Assembly (NCBI GenBank): GCA_027019175.1 | Contig: JALUXB010000062.1 | Span: 1 to 39,924 of the forward strand | DNA from: Sulfurovum sp. | Lineage (GTDB): Bacteria; Campylobacterota; Campylobacteria; Campylobacterales; Sulfurovaceae | Length of the DNA stretch: 39,924 bases | Direction of reading: 5' to 3' | In this document: piece by piece, positions 8,729-23,870 of the stretch | Layout: each line of letters starts with the position of its first letter | How positions within the stretch are numbered: position 1 is the stretch's first letter | Notes under the pieces: generated by a model | The model's database searches: none | Told to the model about the DNA's origin: nothing | Seen by the model: the letters and a program-made list of their open reading frames with translations, nothing else | Made by a program: the position numbers and the translations under genes

Positions 8729-9173
8729 CGATCACGACACAGTTGGAGAGTTTATCATGCAGTGTCTGGTGCAATGGAGAAAAAAAGGCCAATACAAAGC
8801 CGAGATAGAAGAACATTTCACTGACCAAACGCACAGATGCACGCCAGAAAGCCTGTTGAAAACGCAATAGATTTCCGGTATTCATATCGACAGCTTTGAT
8901 TTTCATAACATATTTTCCAAGCGTTTGTCCGTTCTGCCAGATCAGCACAGTATGGTAGAGTACTTTCACAGCGAATACCACTGCAATATTGTCCATAATG
9001 AAAGCATTGATCGTCATAACAGCCGTTTCATCAACAGTTGTAATGCCTGCCATCAGGGCATTGATCTGCGAAGAGAAAATGATCATGAGGAAAAAATTGA
9101 CCACCATATCGTCTATAATGAATGACCAGACACGCTTTCCATTAGAGGCGATCGGCAGCGAAGTGGCCTCCAT
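8721..9173 (-). CDS. RDD family membrane protein
   Basis: I take the ATG at 9173, whose A is the last base of the purD TAA (TAATG coupling, with GGAGG six to seven bases upstream); a longer in-frame extension to 9215 would overlap purD. The 150-residue product shows the RDD layout: ASNGKRVWSFIIDDMVVNFFLMII (Arg and two Asp in the first helix), a second hydrophobic pair, then NGQTLGKYVMKIKAVDMNTGN and a late R/FLGF...FSPLHQTLHDKLSNCVVID motif. RDD proteins are inner-membrane proteins, some acting as Na+/H+ antiporters; most are uncharacterised. Neighbour to lptD across Campylobacterota, which may hint at envelope work. Confidence 0.88.
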   Translation of the reverse strand: MEATSLPIASNGKRVWSFIIDDMVVNFFLMIIFSSQINALMAGITTVDETAVMTINAFIMDNIAVVFAVKVLYHTVLIWQNGQTLGKYVMKIKAVDMNTGNLLRFQQAFWRASVRLVSEMFFYLGFVLAFFSPLHQTLHDKLSNCVVIDV

Positions 9174-10450
9174 TACGCCTCCTGCAATGCCTGATAGGCA
9201 ATATCGGTACGGCACTGTTTGCCGGCAAAATGTACCTGTCCAACCAGCATATAGGCACGGTCTCTCGCCTCTTTGATGCTGTCACCAAGTCCCACGCACA
9301 CCAGCACACGTCCACCCGTAGCATAGAGTTTGCCATCCTCTCCGCGGCTGACACCTGCAAAGGAGATATGTGCATTCTCTTTGAGCTCCTCATGATGGAT
9401 CTCGTCGATGATAATCTCTGCAGCTGGAGAGCTTTTGTAGGGGTAGTCTTTGCTTGCCATCACTACACCCACGGCATACTTGTCGTGAAATTCAATTGTA
9501 GCATTTTTCAGATCACCTGTAGCCGCTTTATAGAAGAGTTCACTCGCCGGTGATTTAAGCAGCGGCATCAATTCTTCACACTCAGGATCACCAAAGCGCA
9601 CATTGTACTCAAGGATAATAGGCTCACCCTTGACCACCATCACACCGATAAAGAGCACACCTGTAAAAGGCATCCCTTCCTCTTCCATCCCTTTCAGTGT
9701 GGGCTTGATGACACGGTCGTCAAGTTTTCTGTAAATTTCATCATTTACCAATGGGGTCGGTGCATAAGCACCCATTCCGCCCGTGTTTGGGCCTTCATCA
9801 TTGTCAAGCAGACGCTTGTGATCCTGTGCAGCAGGCAATACAACATAATCTTTACCGTCACACACGGCAAAGACAGAAAGCTCATATCCGTCAAGGAATT
9901 CTTCAATGACAATGGCCGTACCTGCTTCCCCAAAAGCGTTGCCGCTGAGCATTTCACCCGCAGTTTTTTTCGCTTCTTCATGGCTTTGGGCAATAATCAC
10001 ACCCTTTCCGCCACACAACCCGTCAGCCTTGACGACAATGGGTACATCCAAAGTTTCAATAAACCGGTATGCTTCTTCAATGGAACTGGTCTCTATATAA
10101 CGGGCTGTCGGCACGTTATGACGCGCAAGGAAGTTTTTCATGAAGATCTTGGAACCTTCAAGCTGGGCAGCCTTGGCAGTAGGGCCGAAAATAGTCAGTC
10201 CTCTTGCCTTGAAAACATCGACAATCCCTTCAACCAGCGGTGCTTCAGGACCGACAATGGTCAAATCAACACCATTATCCTCTACAAAATCCGCCAACGC
10301 ATTGAAATCAGTGATAGAAAGATTTTCTCCAAGTTCATCGGTAGCACCGTTACCCGGAGAAAAGTAGATTTTCTCTACATTATCATCCTGTTTGAGTGCG
10401 CGTCCGATGGAGTACTCTCTTCCCCCGCTGCCTATGATCAGTACATTCAT
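9173..10450 (-). CDS. purD: phosphoribosylamine-glycine ligase (GAR synthetase)
   Basis: The enzyme catalyses ATP + glycine + 5-phosphoribosylamine to GAR, the second step of purine synthesis. The 425-residue length fits. It shows the N-terminal Rossmann-like start MNVLIIGSGGREYSIGRALK (the more common GGREHA is GGREYS here), the IVGPEAPLVEGIVD motif, an ATP-grasp core (VVKADGLCGGKGV, EFLDGYELSVFAV) and the DNEGPNTGGMGAYAP signature, then EYNVRFGDPE. It is preceded by a 6S-type RNA with its own promoter, as in other Campylobacterota. It heads the gene run purD-RDD-lptD-J-domain-PRTase-pnp-regulator. Transcription may come from the 6S promoter by read-through or from an unseen promoter near 10460. 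Confidence 0.96.
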   Translation of the reverse strand: MNVLIIGSGGREYSIGRALKQDDNVEKIYFSPGNGATDELGENLSITDFNALADFVEDNGVDLTIVGPEAPLVEGIVDVFKARGLTIFGPTAKAAQLEGSKIFMKNFLARHNVPTARYIETSSIEEAYRFIETLDVPIVVKADGLCGGKGVIIAQSHEEAKKTAGEMLSGNAFGEAGTAIVIEEFLDGYELSVFAVCDGKDYVVLPAAQDHKRLLDNDEGPNTGGMGAYAPTPLVNDEIYRKLDDRVIKPTLKGMEEEGMPFTGVLFIGVMVVKGEPIILEYNVRFGDPECEELMPLLKSPASELFYKAATGDLKNATIEFHDKYAVGVVMASKDYPYKSSPAAEIIIDEIHHEELKENAHISFAGVSRGEDGKLYATGGRVLVCVGLGDSIKEARDRAYMLVGQVHFAGKQCRTDIAYQALQEA

Positions 10451-10604: not shown

Positions 10605-10796
10605 GAGAGCCCGGATGGCCGTTCTGTATATCAGTCGGCCCTAAAAAGCCAACGGTGCAGGAGAGAGGAGCACGTTAGGGGGCAGATCCTCGCCCGTTTT
10701 CAGGCTCAAACGGAAGTGCCCACACACGGTGCCCGCTACATATCCCGCCAATACTAAATGTTGGACCCCATATTACAGTGGTCGAACCATCCAGGT
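10605..10796 (-). ncRNA. ssrS: 6S RNA, epsilonproteobacterial type (Rfam 'purD' motif region)
   Basis: 6S RNA binds sigma70-RNA polymerase by imitating an open promoter. The minus strand from about 10796 folds into a rod of about 190 bases. The closing stem is GGATGG (10792-10787) with CCATCC (10618-10613), followed by CTGTA/TACAG and CCAAC/GTTGG. A large central bubble comes next, with a small CCAA...TTGG hairpin on one side. The terminal part has CG(G)TGC/GCACG, TGCCC/GGGCA and a CCGTTT/AAACGG apical hairpin. A perfect TATAAT ends seven bases before the proposed start. Location directly upstream of purD is the known place of epsilonproteobacterial 6S RNA. The 3' end is approximate. No protein-coding frame competes. 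Confidence 0.78.
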
Positions 10797-15830: not shown

Positions 15831-16523
15831 TCAGGAGTCTGGTTCACCCTCAATATAGGCATGACCTGTGCCTTTTTCTATAATAATATTGATTGGATCA
15901 TCACCACTTTCTGAAAAGTTGACTGTAATTTTACAGTTTGTATGTAACAGCGAACTATAGTCCGGTGAACTGCTTCCTGTAAATCCGTTATGAGGGCGCC
16001 CCAGATGGTCAAATCCTATATACTGGTTGGCATTGTCTCCGCAGTCTATATTAATATCACCGTTCTTAATACCGTAGTTTTTGGTCAGAAAAATATTGTT
16101 GGAGGCACCATTGTTTGTTGTAGTTTCACAGGGCTGATTGTTTGCTCCCATCATTTTCAGTCCGTTGGCAGGGTCATTGATATATTCAGGATTTGATGCA
16201 GAGGTATTTATTCCCCCACCATAATCTTTGTCTGAACCGATATAGTAAAAGATACCGTTATCGGTACACTTTTCGATACCAATACGCCAAAAAGCTCGTT
16301 GCCAACTGTTGTTGCTTGGATTGGTGACATCATCAGTCAGTGCCATGAGTCTGGTGTAGCGTATGGCAGAGAGTATGTTGTCTGCTGCTTCCTGTCTGAG
16401 ATCGCGTTCGTATCGTGGAAGTGCCATGGCTGCAAGAAGTGCCATCACAACAATAACCAAAGTCAGTTCTATCATCGTAAATGCATGACGGCTACGATCT
16501 GTTTGTCTGTTTGTCTGTTTCAT
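15831..16523 (-). CDS. prepilin-like protein (GspH-like minor pseudopilin)
   Basis: The 230-residue protein has a class III signal: basic leader (MKQTNRQTDRSRHA) cut before FTMIEL, then the hydrophobic stalk FTMIELTLVIVVMALLAAMALP with Glu5 present. Ala rather than Gly sits at -1. The globular domain has several cysteines (EKCTDNG, QPCETTTNN, DINIDCGDN, HTNCKITV) that could form disulfides. It ends with a beta-strand set (NIIIEKGTGHAYIEGEPDS) as in GspH/FimT-type proteins. Its start overlaps the previous stop by 4 bases (ATGA). It is last in the riboswitch-led operon. Likely a minor component of a type IV pilus-like or type II secretion-like fibre. Confidence 0.82.
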   Translation of the reverse strand: MKQTNRQTDRSRHAFTMIELTLVIVVMALLAAMALPRYERDLRQEAADNILSAIRYTRLMALTDDVTNPSNNSWQRAFWRIGIEKCTDNGIFYYIGSDKDYGGGINTSASNPEYINDPANGLKMMGANNQPCETTTNNGASNNIFLTKNYGIKNGDINIDCGDNANQYIGFDHLGRPHNGFTGSSSPDYSSLLHTNCKITVNFSESGDDPINIIIEKGTGHAYIEGEPDS

Positions 16524-17080
16524 ATCTTTTGTAGTGTCCTTCTATGATAGGTGATCCAGGGTGTTTTTGAAGGATCATCTGCATTGGGGTCTTTGTAGCG
16601 TACTTGAACATCGACAAGTATTGCGGCAATATCATCTGTCGGATTGGCTGTTGAGTGGTAAGGGTTGATAATAATGGTTGTACTGCTGCGAGCTACATCT
16701 GTACTGTCATTGAGTTTCATTTTTTCGGTACAGGGAAGATTGTTGCCAAGGTAGTAAATGGTGGTATTGACATCATACCCTCCCCCATTGGTACTGCTGG
16801 CACCAGCTGCAGGCCCCTGTCCGGGTATGATACCATTGACAACACCTCGAATATGTTCAATACATTCCGCTGTACCACCAGCAGGGTTCCTGTCATGATC
16901 GGTTACAGCCATTACAGCAAGTTCGGTATAGCTTCTGGCAAGCAGAGCAGCCTGCTCGGTTCTATATTGGATTGTTGTCCCTTTGATCATTTTTCCGGAC
17001 ATGTTGAAAACCAGCATAGCAACTGTTGCCATAACAATAATGACAAAAATGGCTGTGACCATTGAAAATGCTTTTCTCAT
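16520..17080 (-). CDS. prepilin-like protein lacking Glu5 (GspK/PilX-like)
   Basis: The 186-residue protein has a very short leader, MRKA, cut before FSMVTAIFVIIVMATVAMLVF. Position +5 of the mature stalk is Thr instead of the almost invariant Glu. In type II secretion the subunit without Glu5 is GspK, which caps the fibre tip, so a tip position is plausible here too. The body has three cysteines (AECIEH, LPCTEKMK) in a Gly/Thr/Asn-rich domain with beta-strands (TTIIINPYHS, AILVDVQVRYKDP). Overlaps both neighbours by 4 bases. It is smaller than typical GspK (about 320 residues), nearer PilX size, so exact class is open. Confidence 0.78.
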   Translation of the reverse strand: MRKAFSMVTAIFVIIVMATVAMLVFNMSGKMIKGTTIQYRTEQAALLARSYTELAVMAVTDHDRNPAGGTAECIEHIRGVVNGIIPGQGPAAGASSTNGGGYDVNTTIYYLGNNLPCTEKMKLNDSTDVARSSTTIIINPYHSTANPTDDIAAILVDVQVRYKDPNADDPSKTPWITYHRRTLQKI

Positions 17081-18075
17081 AGAATTACCGCCTTTTCTTT
17101 ACAGATAGTGACATTATAGTCCTCTCCGATATTTTCCTGCGTACAGAGTTTGAACCGAAAGGTATTTCCAGATTCCGCAAACTTGAAAACGGAAACCCCA
17201 GTCACGATGATTGCATTGGTTGCCGGCCATCCGCTATTGAGGCTCTCACCTTCCCAAGGCTGGTAGTTGTAGTAGAGTTTAAGGTCATACAGCCCGTCAC
17301 TTCTTGGTACCTGACGTATAGCATAAGCGGTCCATGCCAGTTTGTAATGCTCTACAATTAATTTATTTGCTGTTGTTGCGCCTTTTTGGAATGTAAGTTT
17401 CTCAGGAGCAGCTGCTGTATAACCTACCGTAGAGACACAGCTTTTTGTTTCACCGGCCGTCATACCAAGACAGGCACTGTATGTCCCGTCTCCCAGTGCC
17501 ATATAGGGAATGTCCGGCGGCGAAAGTGTCGGATCTTTAACATAGTTTTTGTCTGCAAAGAAAATAGCTGGATATTGTGGAGCACCATTAAGTCTTACCT
17601 GGTTGTTGGAGAGGTTTTTATAAATGGTATCTGCAAGTGCAAGGTTTGAGCCAGGGGTGATAATAGCTGTACTGCTCGATGCTTTTACATCGCAGAAGCC
17701 GTTCCACGGTGGTAGAATGGCAGCACTGAATCCATCATTGTCTGCACCGATCCACTCCAGTACTGTATGGGTAATGTCTGTGGCATTGGTAGGATCTGTA
17801 ACATACACATTATCTGTCAGGTCAGCAGGATTTCTTGCAATAGTAGTACCGGGTATGCGGTAACTGAGTAAATTGGCGATCTGCTGTGCAGCCAGTTCGG
17901 TTTTGAGGCTTGCTCTATGCGTGGCACGCTGCAAAAGGTAGTTTTGGTAGACATTGGCGATGATAGATGATCCGATGGATGCGACAATGCCAAGTATGAT
18001 GATTACAAAAACAAGTTCTATAAGCGTGAACGCTGGCTGTTTTTGGATATTTTGCGAAGAAATATGATAAGCCAT
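17077..18075 (-). CDS. prepilin-like protein (GspJ/PilW-like)
   Basis: The 332-residue protein has a 15-residue leader (MAYHISSQNIQKQPA) cut before FTLIELVFVIIILGIVASIG, with Glu5 present and Ala at -1. It continues with the amphipathic helix NVYQNYLLQRATHRASLKTELAAQQIANLLSYRI, the usual helix of GspJ/PilW-type proteins, then a large beta-rich head with paired cysteines (GFCDVK, SACLGM, KSCVST, KLCTQE, TICKEK). The ATG directly follows the stop of the previous gene, and the end overlaps the next gene by 4 bases. It is the largest of the four pilin-like subunits; a minor, near-tip subunit is likely. Confidence 0.8.
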   Translation of the reverse strand: MAYHISSQNIQKQPAFTLIELVFVIIILGIVASIGSSIIANVYQNYLLQRATHRASLKTELAAQQIANLLSYRIPGTTIARNPADLTDNVYVTDPTNATDITHTVLEWIGADNDGFSAAILPPWNGFCDVKASSSTAIITPGSNLALADTIYKNLSNNQVRLNGAPQYPAIFFADKNYVKDPTLSPPDIPYMALGDGTYSACLGMTAGETKSCVSTVGYTAAAPEKLTFQKGATTANKLIVEHYKLAWTAYAIRQVPRSDGLYDLKLYYNYQPWEGESLNSGWPATNAIIVTGVSVFKFAESGNTFRFKLCTQENIGEDYNVTICKEKAVIL

Positions 18076-18867
18076 CTACTTTACCTCCGAGTAAAGTTGT
18101 GAGTTTGTTGTCCCTTTTGGAGCACCTATGTTGCACATAAAGGCACTTAAGCGTATCTTTTTGGAAGATAGTTCATCCGCATTATTGTTTGACGTAAGTT
18201 CAACCGTAATAAGTTTGATGTTTGTTGAGCCGGCAGTTATCTTGTATCGAAAAGGGTTCGAAAAGGTGGTATATTTGTCGTACCCCCCACTTGAAGGTGT
18301 ACCATCGGCTTTATTGGGTGTATCATCGCCATAAAAGATGCGAGAAGTAATGGTAATGTTTTTATCTATATAGTCTCCCTTGTATGTTGCATAAGCTTCA
18401 GAGTTATAGAGGGTAAGGTTATACTCTTTATTATTGTAGTCATCGATATCGTCAAGAAAAGAATACCCTTCTCCCGCCTCCGTTCCTAAAGCTGAAGGTG
18501 CAGTAGCACTGTAAAAATTCCCGTCTTTGCCTTTGCAGTAACGCCCACTTGGACTGGTTGCGCCAATAGGCTGTGCGGCGGTTGTAGCGCAGGGGGAAAG
18601 AAATGCACTGGTACTTGTTCTCAATATGGGTTCACCGATGGTTTCATTGGTATCGGCTTCATCCCATTCACCTGTCATGATCATGTTGATCTGTGCCGCT
18701 GCCGCGGCTATGGATTCCTGCTGGAGCGCTACATAGCTGCTTTGTGTCGCCTTGTTGACAAGCATAGGTGCGCTAAGCATTACAATACCCATTACCACAA
18801 TAGCAAAGATAAGCTCAATCATGGCGATCGCTTTATGATGGCGAAAAAATATGGTGTTTTTATTCAT
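18076..18867 (-). CDS. prepilin-like protein (PilV/GspI-like)
   Basis: I take the ATG at 18867, which shares its A with the TAA of the giant gene (TAATG). The 263-residue protein has a basic leader (MNKNTIFFRHHKA) cut before IAMIELIFAIVVMGIVMLSAP; Glu5 is present, Ala at -1, and residue +1 is Ile rather than Phe. A helix with AALQ/AAAAA pattern (YVALQQESIAAAAAQINMIM) leads into a Thr/Ser/Asn-rich head with cysteines (SPCATT, RYCKGK, FMCNIG). It is the first pilin-like gene after the giant exported protein and is surely co-translated with it. Likely a minor pilin of the same fibre. Confidence 0.8.
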   Translation of the reverse strand: MNKNTIFFRHHKAIAMIELIFAIVVMGIVMLSAPMLVNKATQSSYVALQQESIAAAAAQINMIMTGEWDEADTNETIGEPILRTSTSAFLSPCATTAAQPIGATSPSGRYCKGKDGNFYSATAPSALGTEAGEGYSFLDDIDDYNNKEYNLTLYNSEAYATYKGDYIDKNITITSRIFYGDDTPNKADGTPSSGGYDKYTTFSNPFRYKITAGSTNIKLITVELTSNNNADELSSKKIRLSAFMCNIGAPKGTTNSQLYSEVK

Positions 18868-21800
18868 TACCAATTCAACCTTCTGTTTTGTTTGATCGTC
18901 GGTTCTGTTTCAACGACATTTCCTGTTTTCCCTGTCCCCTTCCATTTAAGTCCTTTTGAAAGGAAATTGAGCTGAAATTTGGGTAAGCCGGCAGCAGTGA
19001 CATCGGTACTGAACTTCAGCCATTCATCTGGTGTGATCGTAAAGATAGGATGTGCCGGACGGGTTTTGTCAAGGGGGTACTTGATTGTAATGGCACCACT
19101 TGAACCATTGGTATCCATTGCTATGTTGGTATTGGGAGTAATGACAACGCCTGCCACATCAGATGTTATGGAAAGAACGAGTCCGTCCGTTGTACTGTGG
19201 CTTCCCATACGGAACCAGCCCCCACCAAGGTAGCTCTCTTCTGCCGTTTCCGGCGGAACATTTGTTGTGTTAAAGTCTGGAATATTAGCACAGACAATAC
19301 CTGCGGTAGCATCATCACGACAATAGACATCGACTCTGACACTTGTCGTATAGGTCGTATCCGGTGTATAAATATCTTGACCGTCTGTACCAATGGCTGT
19401 ATCGACTTTGGCAAAGAAGAATGTTCTGTTCTCATCAACCGTTACATTACCTTCGGGTACATAATTCGATTTATGATTGGCATAGGACGTTGCATCGGGT
19501 GATACCGTATGAAGTGTTTCAAAGCCCACGATAACCGGATTGACAACATCGTTATACGGTTTTTTAAAGTTGTAGTTGAGTATGACGTTGGCTGTACCGT
19601 TCTGCTCAGAATAATAGTTTGCTTTAACCAGTGTTGCATTCATGTCCAAACCAGAGCTGTTGTCTTGAACCGGTTGTGTTTCCGATGAATCGGAATCGAG
19701 CCACTGCTGAAAATATACAGAATTAAGATTTTGTTCGGTTGCTATGAGATTTTCAGCTGTTGACATATTGCGGTCAAGCCAAAATACATTGTCTTGTGCT
19801 GCACATCCATCGGTGTAATTGCTCAGTTTGCCATTTGAAGCACCAAGTGCACTGACCTCTCCGTTTAACTGGGCAGATGCACCGGGGTTTCTACTTCCCA
19901 GAGCATTTTGTGTCAGGTCATTCATATATACCCATGGAGCGCTTCCTCCTGAGGGCTGATCAATCAATGATATACTGAGGCCAAATTGGTATGGATTAAT
20001 GAGTAGATTGAGTTTGGTATACTGTTTATCAGGTGAACCTACAAGGTCTTGCAGCTCTGAACCGAAAGTACATCCAATTTTGTCAACATCGTTTGCATCA
20101 ACGGTTGTCGTTCCCAAAACACAGTCGTTGCATGCCGCATCACTGTTGTTTTTACATGCAGTATCAAAGAGCGTTTTGTAAGGGTTGTTCACGGCACGGT
20201 CAACCGTTGTCCAGTTGCTGTCCCAGATTTCGAAACTGTATGCACCTGCATTGGTAGTATTGAGATCCGTACTCACAAAACCGCTGGCAAATTGAGGATT
20301 GAGAGAACTGTGTGTCGTATCGGCACATTTGCTTGCATCACCTTCAAACCTGACCAGTGCCATACTGCTGAAGCGTTTGTCCGGGATGGAAGAGAATCCG
20401 GTCAGCTTTTCATAGAGGTCAATGGTTGTGTACCCGTTAACTGTATTATCTTTAATATTTACTGTAGTCATATTGAGCTCATACGGATACTCCGCTGCAA
20501 TACTAACATCTTTGTTCGGCTCTGAAGAACGGTCGATATTGGTGGCGATGTGTATGCTGTTTAGTGTTTTGTCAACACCTTTGTCTCCTACATCGACACG
20601 GATCGCTTTTGGTCTGATGGCAAAGTTGTCCCTCGCACAGTATGGCTGAGCAAACTTGTCTCTAAGACAGGCGTAACACCCTACAGCATTGGGATCTGTT
20701 CCGTAATGAATGTTTGTATAACGTGTACTGGTATAGTCATAACCATCAGAGGCAGAACAAGCACGGGTACACAGATGTGTGACATCCTGTGCACGGTAGT
20801 AGTCGTCATATATCTGAGCATAGTGGTCATTTTCATTTTTTGCATAGAGTCTGTCACTTGTCAGCAATGTTCCGTTTTCATCAGTCAGCAGCCACATTCT
20901 GAAGGTGGCATTTCGTGTTGCCGATGTATTGGAAAGGTCATTGATATCGTTGACGGTAATACGTGCTTCATCATTATCAAAATAGCTGAACTTTCCAGGC
21001 ATCATAATAATGTTCGGGTCAGAGTTCCCACATTTAAAGTACGAACCGTTGTCATCAAAGTCACCAATGTCAATCATTTCAACATCGACTGTTACACCGT
21101 CTGCTGAGATTGGCTGGGTATACTGGTCATTACTGTCTTTCCCGTAAGAAGCGACATCGTAGTTGAAGTCTCTACCGGCCACTCTTGTAGGCAGAGAATA
21201 ATGCGCAGTCGGATTGGAAGGAGGTGTGTTGCCAAAAGCCTGTTCCACATTAAACTGTACCCAAGTAGGTGAATAGGTAAGGTTCTGATCACACCGCTTC
21301 AATCCCATAATCTGCCAAAAATCTCCGGAACCGTAATTGAGTGTAGCGTTTACCTCTACGTCATAGTCACCTTCAATGAGAGATGCATTCGTATCTTCTA
21401 CTTTGAAGTAGAATTTTGTAAAGTAACGCTGTCCCTGAGTAATGGTTCCTCCCACATTGGGTGTTCTACCTTCACCGATTGTGATAACTGGACGCTTAGA
21501 CGTACTCATTGGACGCGCATAATCTGTAGGTAAAAGAGTATTTCCATTAGGAATGGTATAGTAAGCTTTGTCCGGATTCATAATCGGGGTAACATACCCT
21601 TGATACTGTGTGACAGGAAGCCCAATGGAAACATATTGAGGGTCAATATCTCCTTTTATATCCCAGATAGCTACAGTAAAGCTTAGTTCATCTCCCTGTT
21701 TTGCATAGGCTTTATAAGAAGTGCGATCTTTGTAGGGGATGACGAATTCGTTGAGTTTTGCAACAAAATCGTAACAGACATTTGGCTGGTAGAGTTCTGT

Positions 21801-23519
21801 GGCAAAAGCAATCATACTTGGTGTCACATAGTCGTTGTTACTGGCTGCTTTCAGATATATGGTATTGATGGTAGGGTTGTCGTCCCGATAACTCTCCATG
21901 ATACCAGATACATCGAAGACGTCCACATCCACTCCGTCATTGTTAATTTTAAGATCATTGCTTTGTCCGTTAACATGATCTCTTTTGATCCCTGTCAGTA
22001 CTGCATCAAACATATTCTTTTTGTTCCCGACGCCATTATTGGGGAGGGGGTTTCCATCAGGACCAGGCAGAAACTGATAGTCACTGTTTTCTTTGTTACT
22101 GATTTTCATCCAGTCATAATCATATACATAGTTACCATTTTGATTTTGATGTATATGTGGATAACCGTAGAGATACTCTCCCTCACCTGAAAATACAGTA
22201 GCAGTGGAGTTGACAGTTCCTTCTTTCGGAAGTCTGAAACCGCTGATTTCAATGGGTTCAGCATTGCTTTGATTTTGTAGTTCCTGGAAGCCGTGATACA
22301 CAGAGATGTTTCTAAGCTTTCCGTCACTGTTCTCTCCGTAGATGACCAGAAGAGACCAGCCGCCAAAGATTCCCGGTGACCCTTCTCTTCCTTCGTTGGT
22401 CGTAAGATTCGCTACAGTAAAGGTATTTTTGCCTTTTTGCAGATGTGCTGCCTGTAAAATGTCGGTCACGTCGGCATAGGCGGCATAGGTAACACCATTA
22501 CTGCTTTTGTATGTAGTAAGCTCTTTCGCCTTGACATCCTCATAATTTCCTGAACCATTCGGTGTTGTGACTTTCAGTTTGAGCTTGTTTGCATCGAGAC
22601 TGATGACATCGATATTCTGACCTTCATAATAGTTGCTTGAGTTTTTACCCATTTCAATGAGATCATAGCTGTTACCATCTTCCATACCGTAATGCATCGG
22701 ATAGTCTCTGTCAGTACTGAACCTTCCCTGCCAGAAAAGCCCTGCCCAGAGAATACCTTTTCCGTCATTCTCTTCCTTGTAGGTGTCCGGCAGTTCAATG
22801 TAAGAGGAGGTGGAGTTCCATGTTCTGCTGTCATTGTCAATATCGATGTATTTGCTGATATGGAGGTTACTGGTGATCTCCTGGTAATCATTCATACCGT
22901 GACAGGTACCACCATATGTTTTTTTATGGTCTGTCAGACACATCACCGTGTTACCTGCCATAGCAAAGTTTCCGACAATGTTGCGTGTTGCAGGCGGATT
23001 GATAAGCAAGAAGTCCTGAAAGCCGTCTTTAGTTTCTGTGTCTCCAGGAAGTGTACTCTCAATAATCACATAATCAAGCCCTGCGAATTCATTGTTATTG
23101 TTACTGTTTGGTTTGAATTTCAGTGTAAAGTCTCCATTGCTGTCCGCTGTGGAGGTGATAGTTTTGGTGTGATAAGTATAACCATTTAGATTTTGATATG
23201 TTTTAATTTTTGTATTCTTCCGGTAAACCTCGAATTTATCACCATGATCCCATCCACTGGAAACCCAAAATTTAAATTTGATTGTAAGCGTAGCATTGGC
23301 ATAAGCACTTCCAAAATGATATGTTTTGTATGCTTTGACATCTCTGCTGATATAATACCACCCATCACCCTGATATGTATAACCATTATGCCATCCATCA
23401 GTGTTATTGTTTGTAAATGTATCATTAGCCAACTGTGCAGCATATATAGCAGAAGGTACTGCTAAGAAGAATACAAATAGAAGAAATATTTTTCGAAATA
23501 AAAGATTAAAATTTTTCAT
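18867..23519 (-). CDS. giant Sec-exported surface protein, possible pilus-tip adhesin
   Basis: I start at the ATG at 23519 (AAAAGG eight bases before), giving about 1550 residues; an upstream extension to 23609 would run into the riboswitch. A signal peptide (MKNFNLLFRKIFLLFVFFLA... cut after SAIYA) is followed by a beta-sandwich, lectin/CBM-like stretch (about 28-150: FTNNNTDGWHNG, WVSSGWDHGDKFEVYRKN). A region at about 170-410 contains WAGLFWQGRFS, YAAYADVTDIL and FGGWSLLVIYGENSD, a pattern seen near DUF11-type surface repeats. Cys-rich stretches lie near 910-965 (LCTRACSASDG, GCYACLRDKFAQPYCARDNF) and 1128-1150 (CNDCVLG). No transmembrane, LPXTG, autotransporter or haemolysin end is present. 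Its place before four minor pilins parallels PilY1/MshQ-type proteins, but no named family is certain. Confidence 0.75.
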   Translation of the reverse strand: MKNFNLLFRKIFLLFVFFLAVPSAIYAAQLANDTFTNNNTDGWHNGYTYQGDGWYYISRDVKAYKTYHFGSAYANATLTIKFKFWVSSGWDHGDKFEVYRKNTKIKTYQNLNGYTYHTKTITSTADSNGDFTLKFKPNSNNNNEFAGLDYVIIESTLPGDTETKDGFQDFLLINPPATRNIVGNFAMAGNTVMCLTDHKKTYGGTCHGMNDYQEITSNLHISKYIDIDNDSRTWNSTSSYIELPDTYKEENDGKGILWAGLFWQGRFSTDRDYPMHYGMEDGNSYDLIEMGKNSSNYYEGQNIDVISLDANKLKLKVTTPNGSGNYEDVKAKELTTYKSSNGVTYAAYADVTDILQAAHLQKGKNTFTVANLTTNEGREGSPGIFGGWSLLVIYGENSDGKLRNISVYHGFQELQNQSNAEPIEISGFRLPKEGTVNSTATVFSGEGEYLYGYPHIHQNQNGNYVYDYDWMKISNKENSDYQFLPGPDGNPLPNNGVGNKKNMFDAVLTGIKRDHVNGQSNDLKINNDGVDVDVFDVSGIMESYRDDNPTINTIYLKAASNNDYVTPSMIAFATELYQPNVCYDFVAKLNEFVIPYKDRTSYKAYAKQGDELSFTVAIWDIKGDIDPQYVSIGLPVTQYQGYVTPIMNPDKAYYTIPNGNTLLPTDYARPMSTSKRPVITIGEGRTPNVGGTITQGQRYFTKFYFKVEDTNASLIEGDYDVEVNATLNYGSGDFWQIMGLKRCDQNLTYSPTWVQFNVEQAFGNTPPSNPTAHYSLPTRVAGRDFNYDVASYGKDSNDQYTQPISADGVTVDVEMIDIGDFDDNGSYFKCGNSDPNIIMMPGKFSYFDNDEARITVNDINDLSNTSATRNATFRMWLLTDENGTLLTSDRLYAKNENDHYAQIYDDYYRAQDVTHLCTRACSASDGYDYTSTRYTNIHYGTDPNAVGCYACLRDKFAQPYCARDNFAIRPKAIRVDVGDKGVDKTLNSIHIATNIDRSSEPNKDVSIAAEYPYELNMTTVNIKDNTVNGYTTIDLYEKLTGFSSIPDKRFSSMALVRFEGDASKCADTTHSSLNPQFASGFVSTDLNTTNAGAYSFEIWDSNWTTVDRAVNNPYKTLFDTACKNNSDAACNDCVLGTTTVDANDVDKIGCTFGSELQDLVGSPDKQYTKLNLLINPYQFGLSISLIDQPSGGSAPWVYMNDLTQNALGSRNPGASAQLNGEVSALGASNGKLSNYTDGCAAQDNVFWLDRNMSTAENLIATEQNLNSVYFQQWLDSDSSETQPVQDNSSGLDMNATLVKANYYSEQNGTANVILNYNFKKPYNDVVNPVIVGFETLHTVSPDATSYANHKSNYVPEGNVTVDENRTFFFAKVDTAIGTDGQDIYTPDTTYTTSVRVDVYCRDDATAGIVCANIPDFNTTNVPPETAEESYLGGGWFRMGSHSTTDGLVLSITSDVAGVVITPNTNIAMDTNGSSGAITIKYPLDKTRPAHPIFTITPDEWLKFSTDVTAAGLPKFQLNFLSKGLKWKGTGKTGNVVETEPTIKQNRRLNW

Positions 23520-23581
23520 TGTTATACCTTTTAGGTTCTCTTGTTTTAAGAGGATAAAATTCGTATGTACATCGCAGATGA

Positions 23582-23600
23582 CATAAGCGAAATGCTTACG
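23582..23600 (-). promoter_or_regulatory. expression-platform hairpin of the riboswitch
   Basis: CGTAAGC (23600-23594) pairs with GCTTATG (23588-23582; one G-T pair) around loop ATTTC. The left arm overlaps the 3' strand of aptamer stem P1 (23601-23597), so aptamer closure and this hairpin exclude each other. No T-run follows; a second hairpin (CTCTT-AAAAC-AAGAG) sits just before the ribosome site. This suggests control other than simple intrinsic termination. Confidence 0.5.
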
Positions 23601-23677
23601 GTTAGGCAACCCGGCTGTCTTTGTAAGATCCGTGGCTTTCCGTCTCTGCCTCGCGACAGATTTGGCTTTTCTCCGTA
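23597..23677 (-). ncRNA. cyclic di-GMP-I riboswitch (GEMM-I)
   Basis: The minus strand from 23677 to 23597 shows the full GEMM-I pattern. Outer stem TACGG/CCGTA; GCCAAATC; a stem TCTGTC/GGCAGA closed by the GNRA tetraloop GCGA; then GACGGAAAGCCACGG, a second hairpin (ATCTT/AAGA), and the conserved GCCGGGTTGCC that closes the fold. Compared with the Vibrio Vc2 aptamer, the G21-C46 pair appears as C-G, a compensating change, and the ligand-contacting G20, A47 and C92 positions look kept. G20 argues for c-di-GMP rather than cGAMP. It lies 78 bases upstream of the giant protein gene, in the leader of the pilin operon. Confidence 0.88.
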
Positions 23678-23690
23678 CAATACTTAACTA

Positions 23691-23696
23691 AATATA
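23691..23696 (-). promoter_or_regulatory. -10 box of the riboswitch-pilin operon
   Basis: Minus strand GGTATATTTAG; transcription from about 23684 would start seven bases before the aptamer. The rest of the gap to bamD (23700-23870) is AT-rich and holds only the bamD promoter region (TATGAT, 23836-23841). Confidence 0.45.
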
Positions 23697-23870
23697 CCAT
23701 ATCTAAGATAAAGGGGATATAAAATAAGTTGAAATAATAGTTTCTTATCTGATTAAGTTAATAATGGATCTTTGCCTTGTTTTCAGACAGTCGGTATGCC
23801 GGACGAGACTAATACACTTTTTACATACTTTGAGATATGATATAGGAAACATATTGCAAAGAGGGTGGCT

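Follow-up and report, generated by a model that had tools for sequence, protein, structure and literature searches.

What does the structured leader in front of a giant secreted-protein gene of Sulfurovum sense, and by what means might it act on the genes that follow? The leader lies on the minus strand of a stretch of 39,924 nucleotides of Sulfurovum sp. (contig JALUXB010000062.1, hereafter the window), and an earlier note on this DNA had proposed that it contains a GEMM-I aptamer. The Rfam covariance search bears this out: minus-strand positions 23602-23676 match RF01051 (c-di-GMP-I) with 62.8 bits, against a cut-off of 35, and minus-strand positions 23601-23674 match RF03167 (c-di-GMP-I-GGC) in cmscan with 62.1 bits, 3 bits above its cut-off of 59. 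The P2 loop GCGA and the conserved stretches GGAAAGCC and CCGGGTTGCC are all present on the minus strand. By sequence, the element is a GEMM-I class aptamer, that is, a class I c-di-GMP riboswitch. It belongs to the following set of features, from the 5′ end of the transcript onward.

23691-23699, minus strand: candidate extended -10 element TGGTATATT, read by eye, from which transcription is estimated to start at 23684-23685
23675-23683, minus strand: 5′ strand of a possible long-range helix, P0, GUAUUGUAC, whose predicted partner in the lowest-energy fold is 23563-23570
23601-23677, minus strand: GEMM-I (c-di-GMP-I) aptamer with G20, C21-G46, A47 and C92, matched by both Rfam families at the scores given above
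23673-23677 with 23597-23601, minus strand: helix P1, UACGG/CCGUA, a pairing whose 3′ strand CCGUA overlaps the 5′ arm of H1
23582-23600, minus strand: hairpin H1, 7 bp, CGUAAGC-AUUUC-GCUUAUG, a competitor of P1
23564-23585, minus strand: hairpin H2, UAUGUCAUC/GAUGUACAUA, mutually exclusive with the 3′ arm of H1
23538-23552, minus strand: hairpin H3, CUCUU-AAAAC-AAGAG, immediately 5′ of the ribosome site
23527-23532, minus strand: Shine-Dalgarno sequence (SD) AAAAGG, conserved in position among relatives
23519-23517, minus strand: start codon ATG, conserved in position among relatives
18867-23519, minus strand: open reading frame for a secreted protein of 1550 aa with a signal-peptide-like start
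15831-18873, minus strand: four prepilin-like genes (265, 332, 186 and 230 aa; PilV/GspJ/GspK/GspH-like), recognized by an N_methyl domain and weak NCBIfam hits

The 1550-aa protein has no match in Pfam, NCBIfam or PDB, and a promoter scan that requires a -35 box did not list TGGTATATT at 23691-23699. Elsewhere in the window, a purD RNA motif (RF01069, 85.6 bits) lies at 10609-10739 on the minus strand, upstream of a 425-aa open reading frame at 9173-10450.

The letters of the binding pocket point to the ligand. Both the cmscan alignment and a pattern search give G20, A47 and C92, the signature of c-di-GMP, and the earlier view that the retained G20 favours c-di-GMP agrees with this alignment. 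We assigned position 47, and took the GGC variant to be G20/G47/C92, from the printed RF03167 consensus, which reads CGCGAA with G at the position of A47; the window reads CGGAAA in the same printed alignment. Since the window has retained G20 and C92 but carries an A in place of the GGC-consensus G, the pocket is of the ordinary c-di-GMP type, and on these letters the window aptamer is predicted to bind c-di-GMP. It is highly improbable that the pocket prefers a different cyclic dinucleotide, either cGAMP or whatever the GGC variant binds: cmscan does assign the GGC family, but the window has G20 where cGAMP-binding GEMM-I aptamers have A, and A47 where the GGC consensus has G, and its RF01051 score is slightly the higher of the two. 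Signalling by c-di-GMP is plausible in this host, whose own genome encodes 13 GGDEF domains. Clan competition in Rfam gives Sulfurovum aptamers the c-di-GMP-I-GGC label despite A47 and the slightly higher RF01051 score, and automatic annotation may make the GGC variant look commoner in this lineage than it is.

The earlier note had also taken the C-G pair found in place of G21-C46 as a covariation that speaks against chance. The swap itself is real in the cmscan alignment, but the argument drawn from it loses most of its force, as all 39 recognisable aptamers that a pattern search recovered from one fetched Sulfurovaceae set carry C21-G46. One further aptamer, L027, was read by eye as G-C at 21-46. 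On these sequences, C21-G46 is a lineage trait of Sulfurovaceae and not a local event; being lineage-wide, it says little about the window copy and is not independent evidence. The leader folds with just slightly more favourable energy than its shuffles do (z = -1.8), so that it is the Rfam scores and the conservation that speak against chance.

Conservation extends beyond the aptamer into the platform that follows it. H1 was located exactly where the earlier note had placed a 7-bp hairpin that shares bases with the 3′ strand of P1 and is followed by no T-run, and H3, just 5′ of the SD, is the second hairpin that it had reported near the ribosome site. We checked homologous leaders for loss of the P1-competing hairpin and found that about 20 Sulfurovum leaders retain H1, with compensating changes, pairs 1, 6 and 7 being changed on both sides across leaders. 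The arms of H1 pair better with their own partners (-8.24 kcal/mol) than with those of other leaders (-6.66 kcal/mol; 3/5000 permutations). Within the subgroup of relatives to which the window belongs, the P1 pairing UACGG/CCGUA gives way to UAUGG/CCAUG; in some relatives, G050 among them, P1 is weak. H2 has conserved strands and variable loops, and gives a weak result when matched and swapped arms are compared (218/5000), whereas H3 retains its structure with a free sequence and beats its own shuffles in 21 of 22 leaders. Automatic extraction missed the arms of G087, G110, G133, G033 and G037, and the H2 of G151; these rows were kept, and they lower the totals. The leaders are related by descent, and the permutation and Fisher tests reported here overstate their independence. 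RNAalifold, run on the full MAFFT alignment, recovered the aptamer alone, the platform columns being poorly aligned.

Several observations bear on whether control is exerted on the transcript itself. A scan for hairpins followed by a T-run found no terminator in the leader, in keeping with the earlier opinion that this is not a standard terminator switch. Transcript-level control of another kind, in which P0 (the RNA 5′ end with 23563-23570) and H1 would alternate with P1 and H2 and so alter RNA decay or Rho access, is improbable in our judgement. The 5′ strand of P0 does lie at the estimated RNA start, the lowest-energy prediction contains P0, nearly all leaders can form it, and the decayed leader of genome G024 retains a longer version. 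However, besides the lack of a terminator, the pairing shows no covariation, matched strands being no better than swapped ones (-6.10 versus -5.85; 829/5000), and this mechanism leaves the anti-SD complementarity described below unexplained. P0 was dropped as the main switch helix on the same comparison. In that decayed leader (L118, 5′ of position 533515 on the minus strand of G024:C1), the aptamer is unrecognisable, and the 5′ end and platform retain a long complementarity of GCACUUUAAAA with UUUUAAAGUGC, together with the ribosome-site region.

Roughly half of the relatives have an H1 loop and 3′ arm (AUAACGCUU) complementary over 8-9 bp to the SD and its spacer (AGGUGUUAU). The mean energy of this predicted pairing is -5.62 kcal/mol for matched strands, compared to -4.66 for swapped (90/20000) and -3.41 for shuffled ones (0/300), in a test that was not blind, the anti-SD segment having been extended to the H1 loop after folds showed the pairing; an earlier version of the test, with a segment that excluded the H1 loop, gave no signal. 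Position 6 of the helix is seen as G-U, A-U and G-C, and the loop motif TAAC co-occurs with the spacer motif GTTA (p = 0.023). When the 3′ strand of P1 is kept from pairing, the platform of 6 of 13 leaders (G050, G014, G166, G157, G087 and G155) is predicted to fold, at lowest energy, into a three-way junction in which the anti-SD helix encloses H3 and H2, or most of H2. Holding the P1 strand raises the mean predicted occupancy of the SD only from 0.60 to 0.67 (p = 0.095); with whole leaders and coding sequence the values are 0.50 and 0.56, which is uninformative. Comparison among relatives establishes the aptamer, the conservation of H1, H2 and H3, and, as predicted pairing, the anti-SD complementarity. 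The earlier note had offered no output mechanism; for the relatives, the comparison points to control of translation by the anti-SD strand, a putative match that is weak in the window.

We give about an even chance to the reading that a class I c-di-GMP riboswitch controls the operon of the giant secreted protein and the minor-pilin-like genes by a translational OFF scheme. In the absence of ligand, H1 would take up the 3′ strand of P1. With c-di-GMP present, P1 would form and block H1, freeing the loop and 3′ arm of the latter; the freed strand AUAACGCUU would pair with the SD region AGGUGUUAU and close a three-way junction around H2 and H3. The SD would then be blocked and translation stopped, so that c-di-GMP would turn the gene OFF, at least in the platform form carried by about half of the relatives. 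Both the direction of control and the action on translation are what we infer from these alternative pairings.

The window copy itself departs from this form. Its anti-SD:SD match is weak (-1.9 kcal/mol), in both states its SD is predicted to sit within a small local hairpin, and the anti-SD complementarity is, judging by the predicted pairing, largely lost through erosion, which makes the direction of control in this copy the least certain step. This copy might accordingly have ceased to switch, combining an intact aptamer with a platform that has lost its hold on the ribosome site. The weak match would fit such a loss, as would the existence of a decayed copy in the genus (that of G024); on the other side stand the high aptamer score, the intact P1, H1, H2 and H3 of the window, and the retention of P1 and H1 with compensating changes in its subgroup, and we regard the loss of switching as having a small chance of being correct. 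Among upstream strands, the window SD finds its best partner in the 3′ end of the aptamer, at -5.6 to -5.9 kcal/mol. In a translational ON switch, this strand, UGCCU (about 23604-23608), would pair with AGGUA of the SD in the absence of ligand, and c-di-GMP would draw it into the aptamer and so free the ribosome site, an arrangement in keeping with the rise of adhesins that c-di-GMP usually brings. Nevertheless, UGCCU is fixed by the aptamer and its CCU complements any SD, so that the pairing shows no covariation, and the ON arrangement leaves both the conserved H1, H2 and H3 and the AUAAC/GUUAU match in relatives unexplained; we consider it unlikely. The OFF scheme is the reading that we carry forward.

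Of 78 Sulfurovum genomes, 27 encode an ortholog of the 1550-aa protein. Among 20 fetched upstream regions of large-protein relatives, 11 contain a GEMM-I aptamer above the cut-off, in most cases about 82 nt before the start codon. The upstream regions of the closest orthologs, for instance that of G073 (58% identical), have no detectable aptamer, and thus the riboswitch is not fixed on the large-protein gene. We built a model of the platform, R1, from the sequences of nine leaders, using sequence only and excluding the aptamer. R1 sites were found in 28 of the 78 Sulfurovum genomes, usually one per genome, about 22 of them being strong full-length matches; outside Sulfurovum, they were found in one genome of one other genus. 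Nearly all R1 sites have an aptamer just 5′ of them, and nearly all stand before a long open frame whose start resembles a signal peptide.

The aptamer is far more widespread, with GEMM-I present in 85 of 150 genomes of the family sample, with as many as 21 copies in a single genome. The genome of the window carries five. The four other copies (L001, L002, L004 and L005) are without the H1/H2/H3 platform and precede, as judged by eye, a PAS-type sensor, a secreted repeat protein region, an outer-membrane-type barrel and a rhodanese-like protein. Some Sulfurovum genomes, e.g., G122, G124, G143 and G126, contain 17-21 GEMM-I aptamers, and several lie in close tandem or divergent pairs (G122:C1:1909477-1909556 and 1909625-1909704; G009:C37, 9350 on the plus and 9102 on the minus strand). 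In G151 (L103:1262-1504, plus strand) and G169 (L108:1586-1828, minus strand), the same near-perfect hairpin of 173 nt, of about -88 kcal/mol, interrupts the P3 loop of the aptamer, and the platform and downstream gene are retained. Diverged partial copies of this hairpin elsewhere in both genomes suggest that it is a small mobile element.

The riboswitch in the window is real, well conserved and biologically sensible. A conserved platform before a single operon of secreted-protein and prepilin genes offers a directly testable link between c-di-GMP and cell-surface proteins in Sulfurovum, and its leaders form a natural set with a changed switching part and an unchanged sensor. The open-licence papers that we searched include none on c-di-GMP riboswitches in Sulfurovum. 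The aptamer class is already known; the platform is lineage-specific. Tentatively, and with the chances leaning slightly against it, we propose a GEMM-I platform specific to Sulfurovaceae, in which P1 and H1 would compete and an anti-SD strand made of the H1 loop and 3′ arm would close a three-way junction with H2 and H3, so that c-di-GMP would turn off the translation of secreted-protein/prepilin operons.

Known systems place this riboswitch in context. The layout of the operon, a large secreted protein beside several prepilin-like genes, resembles that of PilY1-type tip proteins with minor pilins (FimU/PilV/PilW/PilX); the analogy is one of layout alone, as the large protein matches no Pfam, NCBIfam or PDB entry and the pilins hit weakly. 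The window resembles the c-di-GMP-I-GGC family (RF03167) in scoring above its cut-off and differs from it by the A at the consensus-G position that we read as 47. The Geobacter pilM switch, a transcriptional cGAMP ON switch of the terminator type (PMC9262584), shares the aptamer fold and the placement before pilus genes. However, the cGAMP riboswitch carries A14 and GEMM-I with G20A binds cGAMP (PMC6274999), and pilM has its terminator, whereas the window has G20 and no terminator. Vc2, the GEMM-I riboswitch of Vibrio cholerae, is described as translational and as using P1 as its switching element (PMC9262584). With Vc2 and RF01051 the window shares the aptamer fold, the GNRA loop, G20, A47, C92, P1 as the switching element and control without a terminator, and differs in having C21-G46, where Vc2 has G21-C46, and in its H1, H2 and H3. 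The window riboswitch is therefore closest in kind to Vc2, with a platform of its own.
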